Shown here one piece after another: positions 2,684-19,658 of a stretch of 32,623 nt of DNA. The stretch is from Mycobacteriales bacterium. Its GTDB lineage: Bacteria > Actinomycetota > Actinomycetes > Mycobacteriales > SCTD01. A program made the translations under genes and the position numbers. Location of the stretch: NCBI GenBank assembly GCA_040902655.1, contig JBBDWV010000041.1, positions 28,014 through 60,636 of the forward strand. The letters are read 5' to 3'. The stretch's first letter is position 1. Every line of letters begins with the position of its first letter. A model generated the notes under the pieces. That model did not search any database and was not told the origin of the DNA. It saw only the letters and a list, made by a program, of their open reading frames with translations.

Positions 2684-3145
2684 GTGCTCGAGCCCACCAT
2701 CACCGTTGTCGGCAACGTCGGTGCCCCGCCACGCACCCGTGTCGTGGCCGGCGGCGCCGTCGTCACCGACTTCCGCATCGCCTCGACTCCGCGAAAGGTT
2801 GACCGGTCCACCGGCGTATGGTCCGACGGGGAGACGATCTGGTTCGGTGTCAGCTGCTGGCGGCTGCTCGCGGAGAACGTCGCGGCGTCCGTCAGGACCG
2901 GGGACAGGGTCGTCGTCACCGGCAGGCTGGTCGCGCGCAGCTGGAAGAACGAGCAGGGCGAGGAGCGCAGCGGGCTCGAGGTCGAGGCGCAGACGGTCGG
3001 CTTCGACCTCGCGAGAGGCAAGGCGGTACAGGAGCGCTCGGCTCCGCTGGCCGTCACCACCGACCCTGGCTACCCCGTAGTGGAGGCCCCGGAGGAGGTG
3101 GACGAGGAGGAGTCCGCGATGGAGCCGCACATGCACGCGGCCTGA
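2684..3145 (+). CDS. ssb: Single-stranded DNA-binding protein (SSB paralogue)
   Basis: Binds ssDNA through one OB fold (about residues 4-110 of 153): the ITVVGNVG opening strand, the TDFRIAST strand, WFGVSCW and the VVVTGRLVARSW strand match SSB. The chosen start is GTG at 2684, because GGAGGA lies four bases upstream and the protein then begins right at the OB fold; an upstream GTG at 2648 would add 12 residues without a ribosome site. The C-terminus is acidic (EEVDEEES) but lacks the DDDIPF-type tip used by replicative SSB to bind partners. I therefore read it as a secondary SSB (SsbB-like), probably not the essential replication protein. No rpsF/rpsR neighbours, which also argues for a paralogue. 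Confidence 0.85.
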   Translation: MLEPTITVVGNVGAPPRTRVVAGGAVVTDFRIASTPRKVDRSTGVWSDGETIWFGVSCWRLLAENVAASVRTGDRVVVTGRLVARSWKNEQGEERSGLEVEAQTVGFDLARGKAVQERSAPLAVTTDPGYPVVEAPEEVDEEESAMEPHMHAA

Positions 3146-3290
3146 CCCGTCCGGCCTGACCCGTCCGGCTGAGTCACGGCTCGGCCCCACCCCCACCCGG
3201 CGCGCTGGCCCCGGGTTCGCCGTCCGGGTGATGTGCCGCCGGTGGGGCTGGAGGCCTTCAGGTGAAGGGCTTGGTGGGCGATGGAAGAGG

Positions 3291-4232
3291 ATGACCTCGC
3301 CCGCACCCGCTCCGCCGGTCTCCGCCCCGCCGGTCTCCGCCCCGCCGCCCGCCGCCCCGCCGCCCGCCGCCCTGCCGCCCGCCGCCCTGCCGCCCGCCGC
3401 CCCGCTGCCGCGCGCGGTCCGGATGCTGCTGGGCGACCTGCACCGCCTGCCCGGCCAGCGGCCGGCACTGCTGCGTGTGGTCCAGGTCACCGACGATCCC
3501 GACTCCTCCGCGCGTGAGCTCGCGGACGCCGCGGCCCTCGACCCGGCCTTCGCTGCCCGGCTGTTGCAGCTGGCCAACTCCGCCTACTACGGCCGTATGG
3601 GCCAGATCACCGCGATCGGACCTGCCGTCAGTGCGCTCGGTGCCGAGACGCTCCGCGGCCTCGCCGTCACGATGGCGCTCGGACTCTCCGGTGAACATGG
3701 GCCGTTGCCGCACGGCTTCTGGGATCGGGCGGCGACCACCGCAGCGGCGAGTCGTCTGGTCGCGCCCCGGGTGGGTGCCGATTCAGGGGATGCCTTTTGC
3801 GTAGGACTGCTGTGTGAGGTCGGTCAGGCCCTGCTCTTCCGGGCAGCGCCGGAGATGTACTCCACCCTGCTCGCCGCCGGGAACGAGGCGGCCCTGGCCG
3901 CGGCAGAGCTGGAGTGGTGCGGCACGACGAACGGCGAGCTGGCCGCAGCCGTTCTGGGCGCCTCCGGGCTGCCGGCACAGGTCTGCCGGGCGATCGCGCG
4001 GCACCAAGGCGTGGCGCCGGTTCCTGGTCAGTCTGTCTCGTTCGACCCGCTCACTCGCGCGCTCCGGGCCGGCGTCCTGCTCGCGCGGGCTGTGGCCACC
4101 GGCGAGGTCGACGAGAAGACGTCGGACGCATTGGCGGCGGTGGTCGGCGGGACGTTCGACGAGACGATCATGCGCAAGCTCGCGCTGCGCACGGCGGCGC
4201 ATGCCGCCGCGCTGAGCGCCACGATGCGGTAG
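3291..4232 (+). CDS. HDOD-domain protein
   Basis: HDOD domains are HD-like folds without metal-binding residues, found in signalling proteins linked to chemotaxis, motility, quorum or c-di-GMP control; the biochemical role is mostly unknown. After a Pro/Ala-rich leader (about residues 4-42), the HDOD domain runs to about residue 250. It includes the typical blocks DPAFAARLLQLANSAYYG and ISALG-like VSALGAETLRGLAV, and CVGLLCEVGQALL. The start is ATG 3291, closely preceded by GGAAGAGG; an ATG 63 bases upstream is in frame but gives an Arg-rich, unlikely N-terminus. The leader is built from 15-bp-type GC repeats coding PPVSA and PPAAL units. No partner gene lies next to it; a motility link is only suggested by proximity. 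Confidence 0.85.
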   Translation: MTSPAPAPPVSAPPVSAPPPAAPPPAALPPAALPPAAPLPRAVRMLLGDLHRLPGQRPALLRVVQVTDDPDSSARELADAAALDPAFAARLLQLANSAYYGRMGQITAIGPAVSALGAETLRGLAVTMALGLSGEHGPLPHGFWDRAATTAAASRLVAPRVGADSGDAFCVGLLCEVGQALLFRAAPEMYSTLLAAGNEAALAAAELEWCGTTNGELAAAVLGASGLPAQVCRAIARHQGVAPVPGQSVSFDPLTRALRAGVLLARAVATGEVDEKTSDALAAVVGGTFDETIMRKLALRTAAHAAALSATMR

Positions 4233-4567
4233 GCGGTCTCACGCATCTTCGGGTGCAGTCTGCGGCTGAGCGTGCGCCCTCGGGATGCGTGCGGGTCGCC
4301 CTGTGCTGCTGGTCCCGGTCAGGCTGGTTCCCCGTGCTCGGGCCCGAGCTCGTGCCGTTTTCGGTGCCAGCAGCGCCTGATCCGCGCACAGGCGTGGCAC
4401 CAAGATCCGCCGGGCAGCCCGGCCGGGTAGCCGGGCCGAACGGTATGCGGGCGATAACGGGCGGCTCAGCGACCTTGCAGCAGGTGCAACGGCCAGGACA
4501 GCCACTACCGGCACCTTGCGGCGTTGCCGTGGCCAGCCGCCGGCGCACAGCTGCGGGGGCCGGGGCC

Positions 4568-4669
4568 GGGGCTGGGCTGCCGCGGGGCGGGGCAGGGGCT
4601 GGGCTGTCGCGGGGCGGGGCAGGGGCTGGGCTGTCGCGGGGTAGGGCCGGGGCTGCCGCGGGGGCGGGG
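4568..4669. repeat. G-rich 27-bp tandem repeat
   Basis: Three 27-bp units begin at 4568, 4595 and 4622. They share GGGGCTGGGCTG-[C/T]-CGCGGGG and differ by a few bases. A fourth partial unit runs 4649-4669. All G runs (three to five G) are on the plus strand, giving strong G-quadruplex potential. Confidence 0.85.
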
Positions 4670-4701
4670 ACCAGCCAGGCGTGGACATGTGCCGCACCGC
4701 G

Positions 4702-4752
4702 GGTGTGCACCACAGGTCAACTTTTTCCGATTGTTGACCTGTGGTGCACACC
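4702..4752. repeat. Perfect 20-bp inverted repeat
   Basis: The left arm GGTGTGCACCACAGGTCAAC (4702-4721) and its exact reverse complement (4733-4752) flank an 11-base A/T-richer spacer. The arms are much less GC-extreme than their surroundings. Neither side is followed by a T run, so it is not a classical terminator. It could be a miniature mobile element, a dispersed palindrome family or a large operator. Confidence 0.9.
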
Positions 4753-5160
4753 TCCCGACAACACACACCTCTCCGGACCGGCACACCGCGCTCATGACCA
4801 GGCAGCCAGCGCGTTCGATTCGGCCACTCCTCGAGGCCTCTTCGGGTGCAGGCGATGCGCTGAGAGTGCGCGCGCTTGCCAGCCCGGCGAGGTTGCGTCG
4901 CCGCACGGCGCGTTGGCGGCCCTGTCAAGGGGCCGGGAGCCGCCGTACGACCCGCCGTCGGGTGCTGAGTCGATCTTCGAGGTCACCTCGAGTACTGGGG
5001 ACGCCCCGGAAGGCCAGCGGCCCGCCGTGGTGACCCAGGCCACTGCACAGCGCCGCAGCTCCACGTCCGGGGCCCCGCCCCGGAGATGCATGGGGGCGTC
5101 CGCCCGTCCCGGTGCTGCTCGACGGGAGCACCGCGTCGTCGCTCCCGTACGCTCGAAGCC

Positions 5161-6839
<1,679 letters not shown>

Positions 6840-6843
<4 letters not shown>

Positions 6844-7226
6844 CCACGTCCCGGACGTACGAAGGACGTGCCGTCTGCGGGGCCGGCCCGTCCTTCACTG
6901 TTGTCGTCCTGCTCAGCGGTTACGTGCTGTTCGCCCCGACTGCCGGCGGGCCGTCGCTGTTCGAGGGCTCGGACAAGGTGGTCCACCTGGTCCTGTTCGG
7001 CCTGTTGGCGGCCACCACCCGGTGGCGGTTCGGTCCGCAGCGGCGCGGCCTGGTGGCCGTCGTGGCGTACGCCGCCGGGAGCGAGGTCGTCCAGGCCGCG
7101 CTGCTCACCAACCGCAGCGGTGAGGCATACGACGTGGTCGCCGACCTGCTGGGCGCGGCAGCGGGGTGGCTGCTGGCCCGGCGGCTGCTGGCCCGGCGGC
7201 TGCTGGCCCGGCGGCTGCGGCGCTGA
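6840..7226 (+). CDS. VanZ-like family small membrane protein (start uncertain)
   Basis: The frame shows VanZ-like features: a hydrophobic segment SFTVVVLLSGYVLF, the family motif DKVVHLVLFGLLA, a third helix (LVAVVAYAAGSEVVQAAL) and the DVVADLLGAAAGWLLA block that resembles the VanZ D-x-x-x-N-x-x-G end. The role of the family is unclear outside teicoplanin resistance. The start is a problem: no ATG/GTG/TTG lies between the ettA stop and the first helix in this frame. A CTG at 6840 overlaps the ettA stop (CTGA), a possible coupled rare start. A good site, GAAGGA before GTG 6868, is in another frame, so a one-base indel at 6868-6891 is the alternative; a GTG at 6924 would cut into the first helix. 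The C-terminus consists of three exact LLARR units. Confidence 0.6.
7170..7217 (+). repeat. 15-bp tandem repeat encoding LLARR x3
   Basis: CTGCTGGCCCGGCGG occurs three times in tandem at the 3' end of the VanZ-like gene. Unit length is a multiple of three, so copy-number change keeps the frame and adds or removes LLARR at the C-terminus. Confidence 0.85.
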
Positions 7227-7264
7227 CCCCCGTGACGGCCGAGGCATACCGGCGCACTGCCAGT

Positions 7265-7531
7265 TCAGGAGCCGGCGTCCTCCTGCCGCCGTCGCACCTC
7301 GGCCCCGTCGGTCCCGCCAGCGCTTCCGGCGTCCTCCTCGACCGGCTCGCGGGCGTAGTTGCGGACCAGCGCGGACAGCAGCGAGCCGCCGCCCCAGGCC
7401 AGCAGGAGGGCGGCGGCGTAGCGCAGGCCGGCCTCCGCCGTGCTGAGCTCGCCGGCCAGCAGTGGTGGCAGGACAGGCAGCCACAGGAGCACGGACACCA
7501 GCAGCACCAAGCCGCGGACGGCCTCGCTCAT
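7265..7531 (-). CDS. Small two-helix membrane protein, last gene of the flhA operon
   Basis: No family recognised. The 88 residues have two hydrophobic helices (about 6-26 and 36-57) and a charged cytoplasmic-looking tail rich in Glu, Arg and Asp. The start ATG overlaps the stop of the PilZ gene (ATGA), so it is translationally coupled and the last gene of the flagellar transcript, convergent with the VanZ-like gene 38 bases away. The coupling suggests a flagellar or c-di-GMP-related role, but nothing in the sequence proves it. Confidence 0.75.
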   Translation of the reverse strand: MSEAVRGLVLLVSVLLWLPVLPPLLAGELSTAEAGLRYAAALLLAWGGGSLLSALVRNYAREPVEEDAGSAGGTDGAEVRRRQEDAGS

Positions 7532-8145
7532 GTCCGGCCCACCGCGCGGGCCCGCCGCTGCTGCTCCATCACCCTGCGGTGCAGGACGTCGGCGGTCCGG
7601 CCGAGGGCGGCGAAGCGCAGCCGCGCCACCTGCCGGTCATCGCTTCCCAGCTCGACGCTGAGCACCTCGGCTGCCAGCGCGAGCTGGCGCCCGTCCAGCG
7701 ACAGGTGGAGCTCCACGGTGCCGCCGACGACCGGCGCCTCACCCGGCCGCAGGACGCATCGGGCGCCGCCTTCGCTGAGGTCGACAACGATGGCGCGCCA
7801 GCGGTGCTCCGCCTGCGTCAGCTCGACCGGCAGCGCATCGGGGGCGCGTGCGAAGGCCCGTTGCTGGGACACCATCGGGTCGTGCAGCACCTCCAGCTCC
7901 CACAGGGGCATGTGGTCCCAGAGCTGCGAGGCCAGCACGGCCGTCAGCTGGTGCAGGCCCGCGCTCGTCTTCCAGCTCAGCACCAGCGTGGTGCCGGCCG
8001 GTAGGTCGAGCTCGACGGGTACCGGCTGCCGCAGGACGAGGCAGCGTGGTGGGCGGACGTCGTCGACGATGCAGATCCGGTCCAAGGCGCCGTCGATCGC
8101 GACGCTCACCTGCTGACCGGCGACCGGCCAGGTCGGGGCGCGCAC
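7528..8145 (-). CDS. PilZ-domain protein (YcgR-like c-di-GMP receptor)
   Basis: YcgR-type proteins bind cyclic di-GMP and slow or stop the flagellar motor. Residues 1-90 form a beta-rich N-terminal domain like the YcgR N-domain. Residues 94-200 form a PilZ domain with both ligand motifs: RxxxR at R96-R100 (RAFAR) and DxSxxG at D122-G127 (DLSEGG). So c-di-GMP binding is expected. GTG start one base after the FlhF-like stop; its own stop overlaps the next small membrane gene. Position in the flhA operon supports a role as motor brake; the actual motor contact (MotA, FliG or FliM) cannot be read from sequence. Confidence 0.85.
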   Translation of the reverse strand: MRAPTWPVAGQQVSVAIDGALDRICIVDDVRPPRCLVLRQPVPVELDLPAGTTLVLSWKTSAGLHQLTAVLASQLWDHMPLWELEVLHDPMVSQQRAFARAPDALPVELTQAEHRWRAIVVDLSEGGARCVLRPGEAPVVGGTVELHLSLDGRQLALAAEVLSVELGSDDRQVARLRFAALGRTADVLHRRVMEQQRRARAVGRT

Positions 8146-8146
8146 G

Positions 8147-9598
8147 TCAGGCTGCCACGCGGCCGGTCAGCAGCGCGGCCCAGCTCGACGGGGTCGCCGG
8201 CTGCTCGCCGAGGCGGGCAACCGGGATGCCCAGCTCCAGCACCGCAGCCGGGTCCGACGTCTCGTCCACCGCGCTGAGGGCCAGCGCGTCGAAGCCGCCG
8301 ACGGCGCGGGCGAAGGCACCCACGTCGTAGGACTTGCGGGTGGCTTCGACCGCACCCCACGTCGCAGACGCGTCGAGAGCGGAGAGGTAGGCCCGCGCCT
8401 GCACGGCGCCGGCTGAGGTCATGGGAGCATCGATCGCGACGATCGTGAGGTTGCGGCGCCGACGCCACGTGGTGCGGCAGGTCTCCGCCGAGTCCACGTC
8501 GCGCAGGACCTGGCGCTCGGGCAGGTCGGTCAGTGTCCGGCGGGAGGTGGCCAGCACCACGGCGGACGCGACGGGCAGACCGAGTTCGCGGGCCATCGCC
8601 CGAGCCGTCTCGAGCGACTGGGGCAGCGGACCGACGACCGCCAGCACGGCACCCGCCCGGTTGACGAGGGCAGGCACCTCCGGCAGACCGCCCAGGCTCT
8701 TCAGGAGTGCGGGGTAGAGGGCATCGTCCGTGCCGAAGGGCTGCAGGTACGCCGGCAGGCCCAGCCGGGCCAGCTGGCCGCCCAGCGTGGAGGCGCCGGG
8801 GGCACGCCCGAAGGGCAGGTTCACCGGCAGCGCCACGGGCGCCGTCAGCAGCGCGTCCTCGGAGGTGCGGGCCGCCGGGATGATGACGGGAGCGACCGGA
8901 CGGGGCTCGAGGAACTGCGGCACCGCGGTCCCCGCCCGCGCCGCCGGCGGCGTGCCGGCCGCGGCATCGAGGTTGGCCAGCAGGGCAGCGAAGGTGCTGC
9001 CCTCGGTGGAGACGTGCGCATTCGCGCGGTCGAGGATTCCCAGGTCCGCGGCAGGACGGTCGGCGGGCGCGGGGCCCTGCGCGGCCTCCACGGTGCCCTC
9101 CAGCGTCACGGGTGCGACGGCGACCGGAGCGGCGACCGGTGCTGCGGCCGGCTGCGGTGCGGATAGCAGCGGGATCGCGGACGGTCCGGTACCGGTCATC
9201 GCCTCCAGGCTCGCGAGCACGGAGGCGAACGACCTGCCCGCGCCGGAAGCCGTGGGGCTGCCGGCCGGCTCGGCCGGGGCGGCGGCCGGGGTCACGGTCG
9301 GGGCCGGGGTCGGCTCGGTCCTGGACTGCAGCGACAGCCCGGAGTGCTCACTGTCGCTCACCTGGTCGGCCAGCTCCAGCAGCGACAGCGGCCTGTCGGC
9401 CGGCTTGTCGGCCACCGTGGCCGGTGCGTCCCCGACCTCGACGCTGACCTCGAAGCGCTGCTTGGCGAAGAAGCCGGCGATCCCACCGGTGCGCACCTTC
9501 TCGGCGCGCACGATGCGGGCACCTGCGCCCAGCTCGTTCTTCACCCTGGCGAGCAGGGCCTCCAGGTCCGGTCCCTCAAGCTGCAACTGCGTGGGCAC
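8147..9598 (-). CDS. FlhF-like protein with degenerate GTPase domain
   Basis: FlhF is an SRP-family GTPase that fixes flagellar position and number. Here residues 1-55 match the FlhF B domain (DLEALLARVKNELGAGARIV, then FFAKQRFEVSVEV). Residues 60-300 are a long Ala/Pro-rich linker with two FASVLASLEA/FAALLANLDA-like helices. Residues 310-483 keep the outline of the NG domain (SAVDETSDPAAVLELGIPVARLGEQ at about 442-466 corresponds to the TKLDET...GQ region). However, the P-loop GxxGxGKT is replaced by VGPLPQSLETA (322-332) and the DTAGR motif by IDAPMTSAG (389-397). It should not bind or hydrolyse GTP in the usual way. GTG start, with GGAG nine bases upstream; overlaps the flhA end by 23 bases. 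Confidence 0.75.
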   Translation of the reverse strand: MPTQLQLEGPDLEALLARVKNELGAGARIVRAEKVRTGGIAGFFAKQRFEVSVEVGDAPATVADKPADRPLSLLELADQVSDSEHSGLSLQSRTEPTPAPTVTPAAAPAEPAGSPTASGAGRSFASVLASLEAMTGTGPSAIPLLSAPQPAAAPVAAPVAVAPVTLEGTVEAAQGPAPADRPAADLGILDRANAHVSTEGSTFAALLANLDAAAGTPPAARAGTAVPQFLEPRPVAPVIIPAARTSEDALLTAPVALPVNLPFGRAPGASTLGGQLARLGLPAYLQPFGTDDALYPALLKSLGGLPEVPALVNRAGAVLAVVGPLPQSLETARAMARELGLPVASAVVLATSRRTLTDLPERQVLRDVDSAETCRTTWRRRRNLTIVAIDAPMTSAGAVQARAYLSALDASATWGAVEATRKSYDVGAFARAVGGFDALALSAVDETSDPAAVLELGIPVARLGEQPATPSSWAALLTGRVAA

Positions 9599-19623: not shown

Positions 19624-19658
19624 CGATGCCGGGCCCGCGTGCAGCGGGCCCGGCATCG
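19624..19658 (-). terminator. Strong hairpin after flgE
   Basis: A perfect 15-bp stem (CGATGCCGGGCCCGC and its complement) with a five-base loop, 17 bases past the flgE stop. No U tract follows, as is common in high-GC actinobacteria. It separates the flgB-flgE transcript from the flbD promoter. Confidence 0.8.

Follow-up and report, generated by a model that had tools for sequence, protein, structure and literature searches.

The window, by which we mean the whole stretch of 32,623 nucleotides analyzed here, carries a perfect inverted repeat in a 928-bp gap (4233–5160) between an HDOD-domain gene (3291–4232, plus strand) and a gene for an ABC-ATPase with an ABC_tran_Xtn domain (5161–6843, plus strand), both called with a custom codon-usage script rather than a standard gene finder. 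The left arm (GGTGTGCACCACAGGTCAAC; 4702–4721, plus strand) is followed by an 11-base spacer (TTTTTCCGATT; 4722–4732) and by a right arm (4733–4752, minus strand) that is its exact reverse complement, and both arms end inward in GTTGAC. With loops of 3–20 bases allowed, no other perfect hairpin in the window is as long as this 20-bp stem, and base composition predicts 1.6e-5 perfect 20-bp stems there. The runner-up, at 19624–19658, is a G+C-rich 15-bp perfect palindrome with a 5-base loop, situated in a gap between two minus-strand genes. Only 27 of the 51 bases of the 4702–4752 palindrome are G or C, compared with 72% for the window. The sequence-only reading had described exact 20-base arms around 11 bases, a gene-free setting, a composition unlike the GC-rich surroundings, GTTGAC-type inward ends and the lack of a T tract that would support a terminator, and on all of these it was right: no T tract lies 3' of the stem, and a terminator scan of 3000–8500 called nothing at the site. 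Rfam returned two sub-threshold microRNA matches only for 4000–5400 (25.3 of 98 and 19.5 of 90 bits).

The palindrome is only the core of a longer conserved sequence, which spans about 4650 to 4812. A covariance model of the family (R1) matches the unit 4679–4781 on the plus strand (C41:32692–32794, 113.9 bits), and the alignments reveal outer, weaker inverted segments within it (GACATGTGCCGC... and ...CAGCACACAYGTC); across the repeat the outer segments are likewise weakly inverted (GACATGTGCCGC and CACACAYGTC). When the whole gap was compared with the family copies by blastn, match ends clustered at 4650–4690 on the left and 4782–4812 on the right, giving approximate and rather fuzzy outer limits of 4650–4812 (plus strand) for the entire repeat. 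The best copy matched 4614–4811 at 89%, and most others matched from 4684 to about 4811. As RNA, positions 4680–4790 are predicted to fold at −61 kcal/mol (z = −7.4), a value equalled by none of 200 shuffles.

The genome from which the window derives (3.56 Mb in 62 contigs, 97.9% complete; G000), probably actinobacterial to judge by composition and gene families, contains 48 matches to the arm with at most three mismatches and 29 matches to a whole-palindrome pattern, with none for the backwards control in either search. Sixteen copies were used to build a covariance model, which found 35 places, a minimum count because scoring was confined to the best 65 first-look candidates, and a looser pattern added three more (C13:30435, C17:88917, and C52:4575). 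The family thus comprises at least 38 copies, each an imperfect palindrome within a 100–160 bp repeat except for the perfect one in the window, and the copy count proposed as a check in the sequence-only reading bears out its candidate of a non-autonomous mobile element or dispersed palindrome. Among the 36 copies whose 51-base core is complete, a mean of 3.6 of the 20 pairs are mismatched. Two copies are identical at all 51 core bases, and contig ends cut or adjoin two copies (C4, C32 start).

Conservation is strongest at the center of the repeat, not at its termini, and extends beyond the arms by about 25 bases on the left and 30–60 on the right before falling to background level, with longer flanks common to one group of related copies. 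There are two stem classes: the majority of copies read ACCACAGG/CCTGTGGT, and eight read AGGAGAGG/CCTCTCCT or close to it (C50:13310, C17:161470, C13:11056, C1:28805, C17:72698, C13:30435, C17:88917, and C52:4575). The family consists of subfamilies of near-identical copies and is dispersed, non-coding, and lineage-limited.

Within the core, each arm has the letter pattern TGNNCA-NN-A-NN-GGTCA, in both species that carry the family. In an alignment of 44 cores (36 from G000 and eight from its congener G003), 12 of the 51 columns are invariant (T5, C7, T16, C17, A18, T34, G35, C37, T41, T44, G45, and A47) and a further set is nearly so (A8, A11, G14, G15, T22, T33, A36, and C38). Of 38 half-site pairs at the G000 loci examined, 36 are exactly 15 bases apart, although spacings of 5–45 were allowed; the spacer keeps its length and its letters vary. 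In the search pattern, CACAGGTCAA and TTGACCTGTG were separated by 13 unspecified bases. Among looser pairs in G003 the spacing is 15 in seven of 12, the other five having five different spacings.

Pairing is kept less widely than these letters. Base-paired cells make up 81.9% of the stem, and two-sided changes occur in 54 cells, a total reached by none of 500 shuffles and by no slid control (at most 27); much of this signal comes from one subfamily split, however, and the pairs that show a two-sided change are not unusually many (eight, a count reached by 453 of 500 shuffles). Summed over the variable pairs 9, 10, 12, and 13, standard pairs are formed in 124 of 144 cells in G000, against 14 of 32 in G003. 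The stem is therefore well kept in G000, partly through common descent of subfamilies. The structured RNA proposed in the sequence-only reading may yet apply: its predicted fold is strong, but the variable pairs are mostly not kept in G003. Wobble cells are unevenly divided between A-C and G-T (26 and 10 in G000, 7 and 11 in the congener); we discarded this asymmetry as a sign of a minus-strand hairpin in G000, as it arises mostly from one pair.

The family has a narrow distribution. The covariance model was run on 61 genomes including G000 under stricter filters, and looser pattern searches covered 121 genomes in one case and 24 genomes of the same taxonomic family in the other. One of eight congeners, G003, carries eight diverged copies detected by the covariance model, and neither model nor pattern searches found copies in the other seven. 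Beyond the genus, 112 genomes yielded no credible copy: a single pattern match with two mismatches in G026 was taken as chance, as were single weak matches in G032 and G036, and G036 and G037 also matched the backwards control. No blastn match to the repeat was obtained in plasmids and phages, and the strict pattern had no matches in viral contigs; four matches there to a loose pattern were rejected (40–41% G+C, different flanks, three representing the same locus). A shorter pattern with 16 fixed bases hit 78 stretches of unrelated bacteria in 257 billion bases of contigs, which, taken together rather than checked singly, is about chance level (near 120 expected by our estimate). A literature search, in itself a weak negative, found no paper describing the palindrome family.

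The gap at C13:30435 holds a diverged copy in G003 too (L233 and L168), and no other G003 copy matches the surroundings of a G000 copy. With one copy thus shared between the two species at a common site, not all copies are recent; with eight and 38 copies, such a coincidence is in itself not very improbable (roughly estimated at 0.2). Two other sites show an apparent difference between species in the presence of a copy: the genes flanking C32:97587 are 550 bp apart in G000 and 30 bp apart in the congener G008, and the gap at C17:72698 measures about 480 bp in G000 and 24 bp in G004, the stretch being missing from G003 and G002 also, with larger differences there. A clean empty site was not found, since intergenic lengths differ in every congener examined and the gaps hold other sequence or hairpins. 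Several congeners (loci L239, L246, L240, and L241) carry strong hairpins of their own downstream of the acyl-CoA dehydrogenase gene facing the copy at C32:97587, three of them of the GAGGCCGG...CCGGCCTC type.

All 31 copies for which both neighbors could be read are intergenic, in loci with a coding share of 85%; the smallest distance to a gene is −1 (a 1-base stop-codon overlap), and no gene is predicted inside any of them. Fourteen lie in convergent, 14 in co-directional, and three in divergent gaps, compared with 38, 142, and 45 of the 225 other gaps in the same loci, a convergent excess (Fisher p = 0.0012) that becomes stronger against the 62 background gaps of at least 120 bp (four convergent, 27 co-directional, and 31 divergent; p = 2e-5). 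The deficit of divergent gaps is significant only against the latter background (3/31 vs 31/62, p = 1e-4; 3/31 vs 45/225, p = 0.22). In co-directional gaps the repeat shows no preferred orientation (eight with, six against the genes).

A gene 3' end adjoins at least one side of 28 of the 31 readable copies, at distances from the unit that range from −1 to more than 1000 bases. The neighboring genes are ordinary ones, including those for ribosomal L10 and L1, SRP54, LeuA, PurD, and acyl-CoA dehydrogenases, and no transposase or integrase family matches were found at 1e-5 in the 62 of 70 neighbor proteins scanned (one scan was run at 1e-3). One copy (L176, 4095–4197) lies between the ribosomal L1 and L10 genes, upstream of L10, where an L10 leader might be expected. 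Another stem of at least nine pairs precedes the copy at two of 41 gene ends facing one, and such a stem occurs within 70 bases of eight of 62 other gene ends; the windows compared differ and the difference is small, so we regarded it as too weak to argue that copies replace gene terminators.

G000 holds other repeats as well. A second dispersed hairpin, GGTGCCAGCAGCGCCTG...CAGGCGTGGCACC (also written GGTGCCAGCAGCGCCTGATCC...CAGGCGTGGCACC), occurs in the gap of the window at 4363–4401 (plus strand); it has seven copies with at most one mismatch in G000, six of them within 500 bp of a palindrome copy. A third palindrome class, TGATCAACGCC and GGCGTTGATCA separated by about 40 bases, has seven distinct copies in 427 kb of G000 sequence (overlaps counted), whereas 176 kb from congeners gave no credible copy. 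Read as TTGATCAACGCC...GGCGTTGATCAA, these are found at L184 3998–4063, L270 3307–3372, L148 928–993, L173 4376–4441, L178 5521–5585, and L183 5493–5558 and 7501–7566, and all seven have a total length of 65–66 bases. The copies at C17:72698 and C52:4575 share about 290 bp, 77% identical, that end in this third hairpin. A G-rich tandem repeat with a 27-base unit occupies 4554–4655 of the window and is in part common to the left side of the C52:13294 copy. Pairs resembling GGTGCCAGCAGCGCCCGCTT, 84–90 bases apart, at C5:174587, C17:110641, C25:32137, and C62:54862 of G000 probably represent a different repeat.

Taken together, these observations indicate that the palindrome is probably the core of a REP/MITE-like dispersed repeat of about 100–160 bp, non-autonomous and non-coding, that is moved in trans; we file it under its broad kind only, as one of the dispersed intergenic palindromic repeats. 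An enzyme supplied in trans would recognize the two inverted arms at their fixed spacing, reading them either in duplex DNA or in a folded single strand, and would then copy or move the unit. Insertions elsewhere would presumably be harmful, those into genes or promoters being weeded out, which would leave copies at gene 3' ends. Transcripts entering from either side would there contain a strong hairpin, which may block 3' exonucleases or aid termination. The intergenic regions concerned are repeat-rich, as would be expected of mobile repeats more than of one dedicated site.

Direct traces of movement were sought in G000. Target duplications, a check suggested by the sequence-only reading, did not emerge: outside the unit, the 36 copies gave no excess over shuffled pairings, a comparison weakened by the fuzzy ends, and one 4-base pair present in nine copies (maximum of eight in 60 shuffles) lies inside the conserved unit. 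An autonomous parent was likewise not found, as 47 of the 48 arm matches belong to palindromes, the 48th is truncated where its contig stops, and all 23 matches to the outer ends with at most two mismatches fall at known copies; such a parent could be lost or could reside in the unassembled part of the genome. PF01797 (Y1 transposase, RAYT) had no matches in G000, while five of 14 control genomes were positive.

Other explanations were weighed against this mobile repeat. It is unlikely that the family serves some undescribed system as its recognition site, one in which a two-fold symmetric protein (a transposase, recombinase, or nucleoid protein) reads duplex half-sites TGNNCA-NN-A-NN-GGTCA at a fixed 15-base separation and has spread its own sites through one genus without a Y1 transposase, a REP tag, or target duplication. 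Given the two further dispersed classes, several such palindrome systems may coexist in G000. Integron sites similar to attC were also considered and rejected: the attC core is GTTRRRY, and the arm letters do not fit it.

It is likewise unlikely that the copies are binding sites of a two-fold symmetric chromosomal protein acting in nucleoid organization, segregation, or replication, with the arms as half-sites and the spacer setting their geometry. The nearly constant separation with variable spacer letters, the recurrence of the same letters in both arms and both species, and the limited standard pairing at the variable pairs in G003, which indicates that letters rather than pairing are kept, would all suit such a protein. 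Conservation nevertheless continues 25–60 bp outside the half-sites and the copies form near-identical groups, as in copied units, and absence from seven of eight congeners is unlike a core chromosome function; binding alone also leaves the sequence clustering of copies unexplained.

Hairpins that selection maintains next to genes, as bidirectional terminators or at mRNA 3' ends, would account for the abundance of adjoining gene 3' ends, for the strong RNA fold and, weakly, for the slightly rarer occurrence of another stem before a copy. We consider this quite improbable, because the site has neither a T tract nor a terminator call, distances between gene end and unit are widely spread, and pairing is poorly kept in the congener. 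Published REPs are placed likewise without having been chosen as terminators. Exact dyad symmetry would also be expected of the operator of a transcription regulator, which the sequence-only reading had listed among its candidates, but the placement of copies (only three of 31 divergent, 14 convergent) and the lack of an apparent common pathway among neighbor genes make this highly improbable. A chance palindrome or an assembly artefact is refuted by the very low expectation noted above and by the spread of copies over many contigs and into another species.

What looks like a single palindrome in raw sequence can belong to a family spread over the whole genome. The usual explanations for small palindromic repeats are Y1 transposases (REPs) and recognizable parent transposons (MITEs), neither of which was found here. 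With its tightly kept spacing and half-site letters, the family is well suited to the question of how such repeats are copied and whether they are useful at gene ends. If it is an ordinary REP- or MITE-like repeat, its relevance lies mainly in annotation and in assembly, two copies being cut by contig ends or adjoining them.

Among known systems, intrinsic terminators resemble the family in their stable stem adjoining gene ends and differ from it in that the family lacks a T tract, has long conserved sequence outside the stem, and shows family structure. MITEs (PMC10969869, PMC2229807) measure less than 500 bp, carry terminal inverted repeats and, as long as they are young, are flanked by target duplications. 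Like ERIC, RUP, and Correia, the family resembles them in being non-coding, shorter than 500 bp, imperfectly palindromic, dispersed between genes, and present in tens of copies; it differs in that no target duplication or matching parent was found and in that conservation peaks at the center, not at the termini.

REPs and REPINs offer a further comparison. According to PMC3733652, REPs are defined by a GTAG or CGTC tag, the GTAG class has an associated Y1 transposase (some species being without one), and the repeats are found mainly between co-directional and convergent genes. GTAG is absent within 30 bases of the palindrome in all 36 copies, and CGTC occurs within that distance on either strand in 14 of 36, with at most four at one position and no conserved CGTC in the window copy. 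The family therefore differs from REPs in having neither GTAG nor a fixed-position CGTC, and no Y1 transposase match in its genome. It shares with REPs and REPINs short palindromic intergenic units, a preference for convergent and co-directional gaps, and near-identical subfamilies. In REPINs (PMC3116915), conserved ends in inverted orientation enclose a spacer whose length is constant, a layout that the family resembles; its own conserved letters surround a central 11-base spacer and do not stand at the outer ends.
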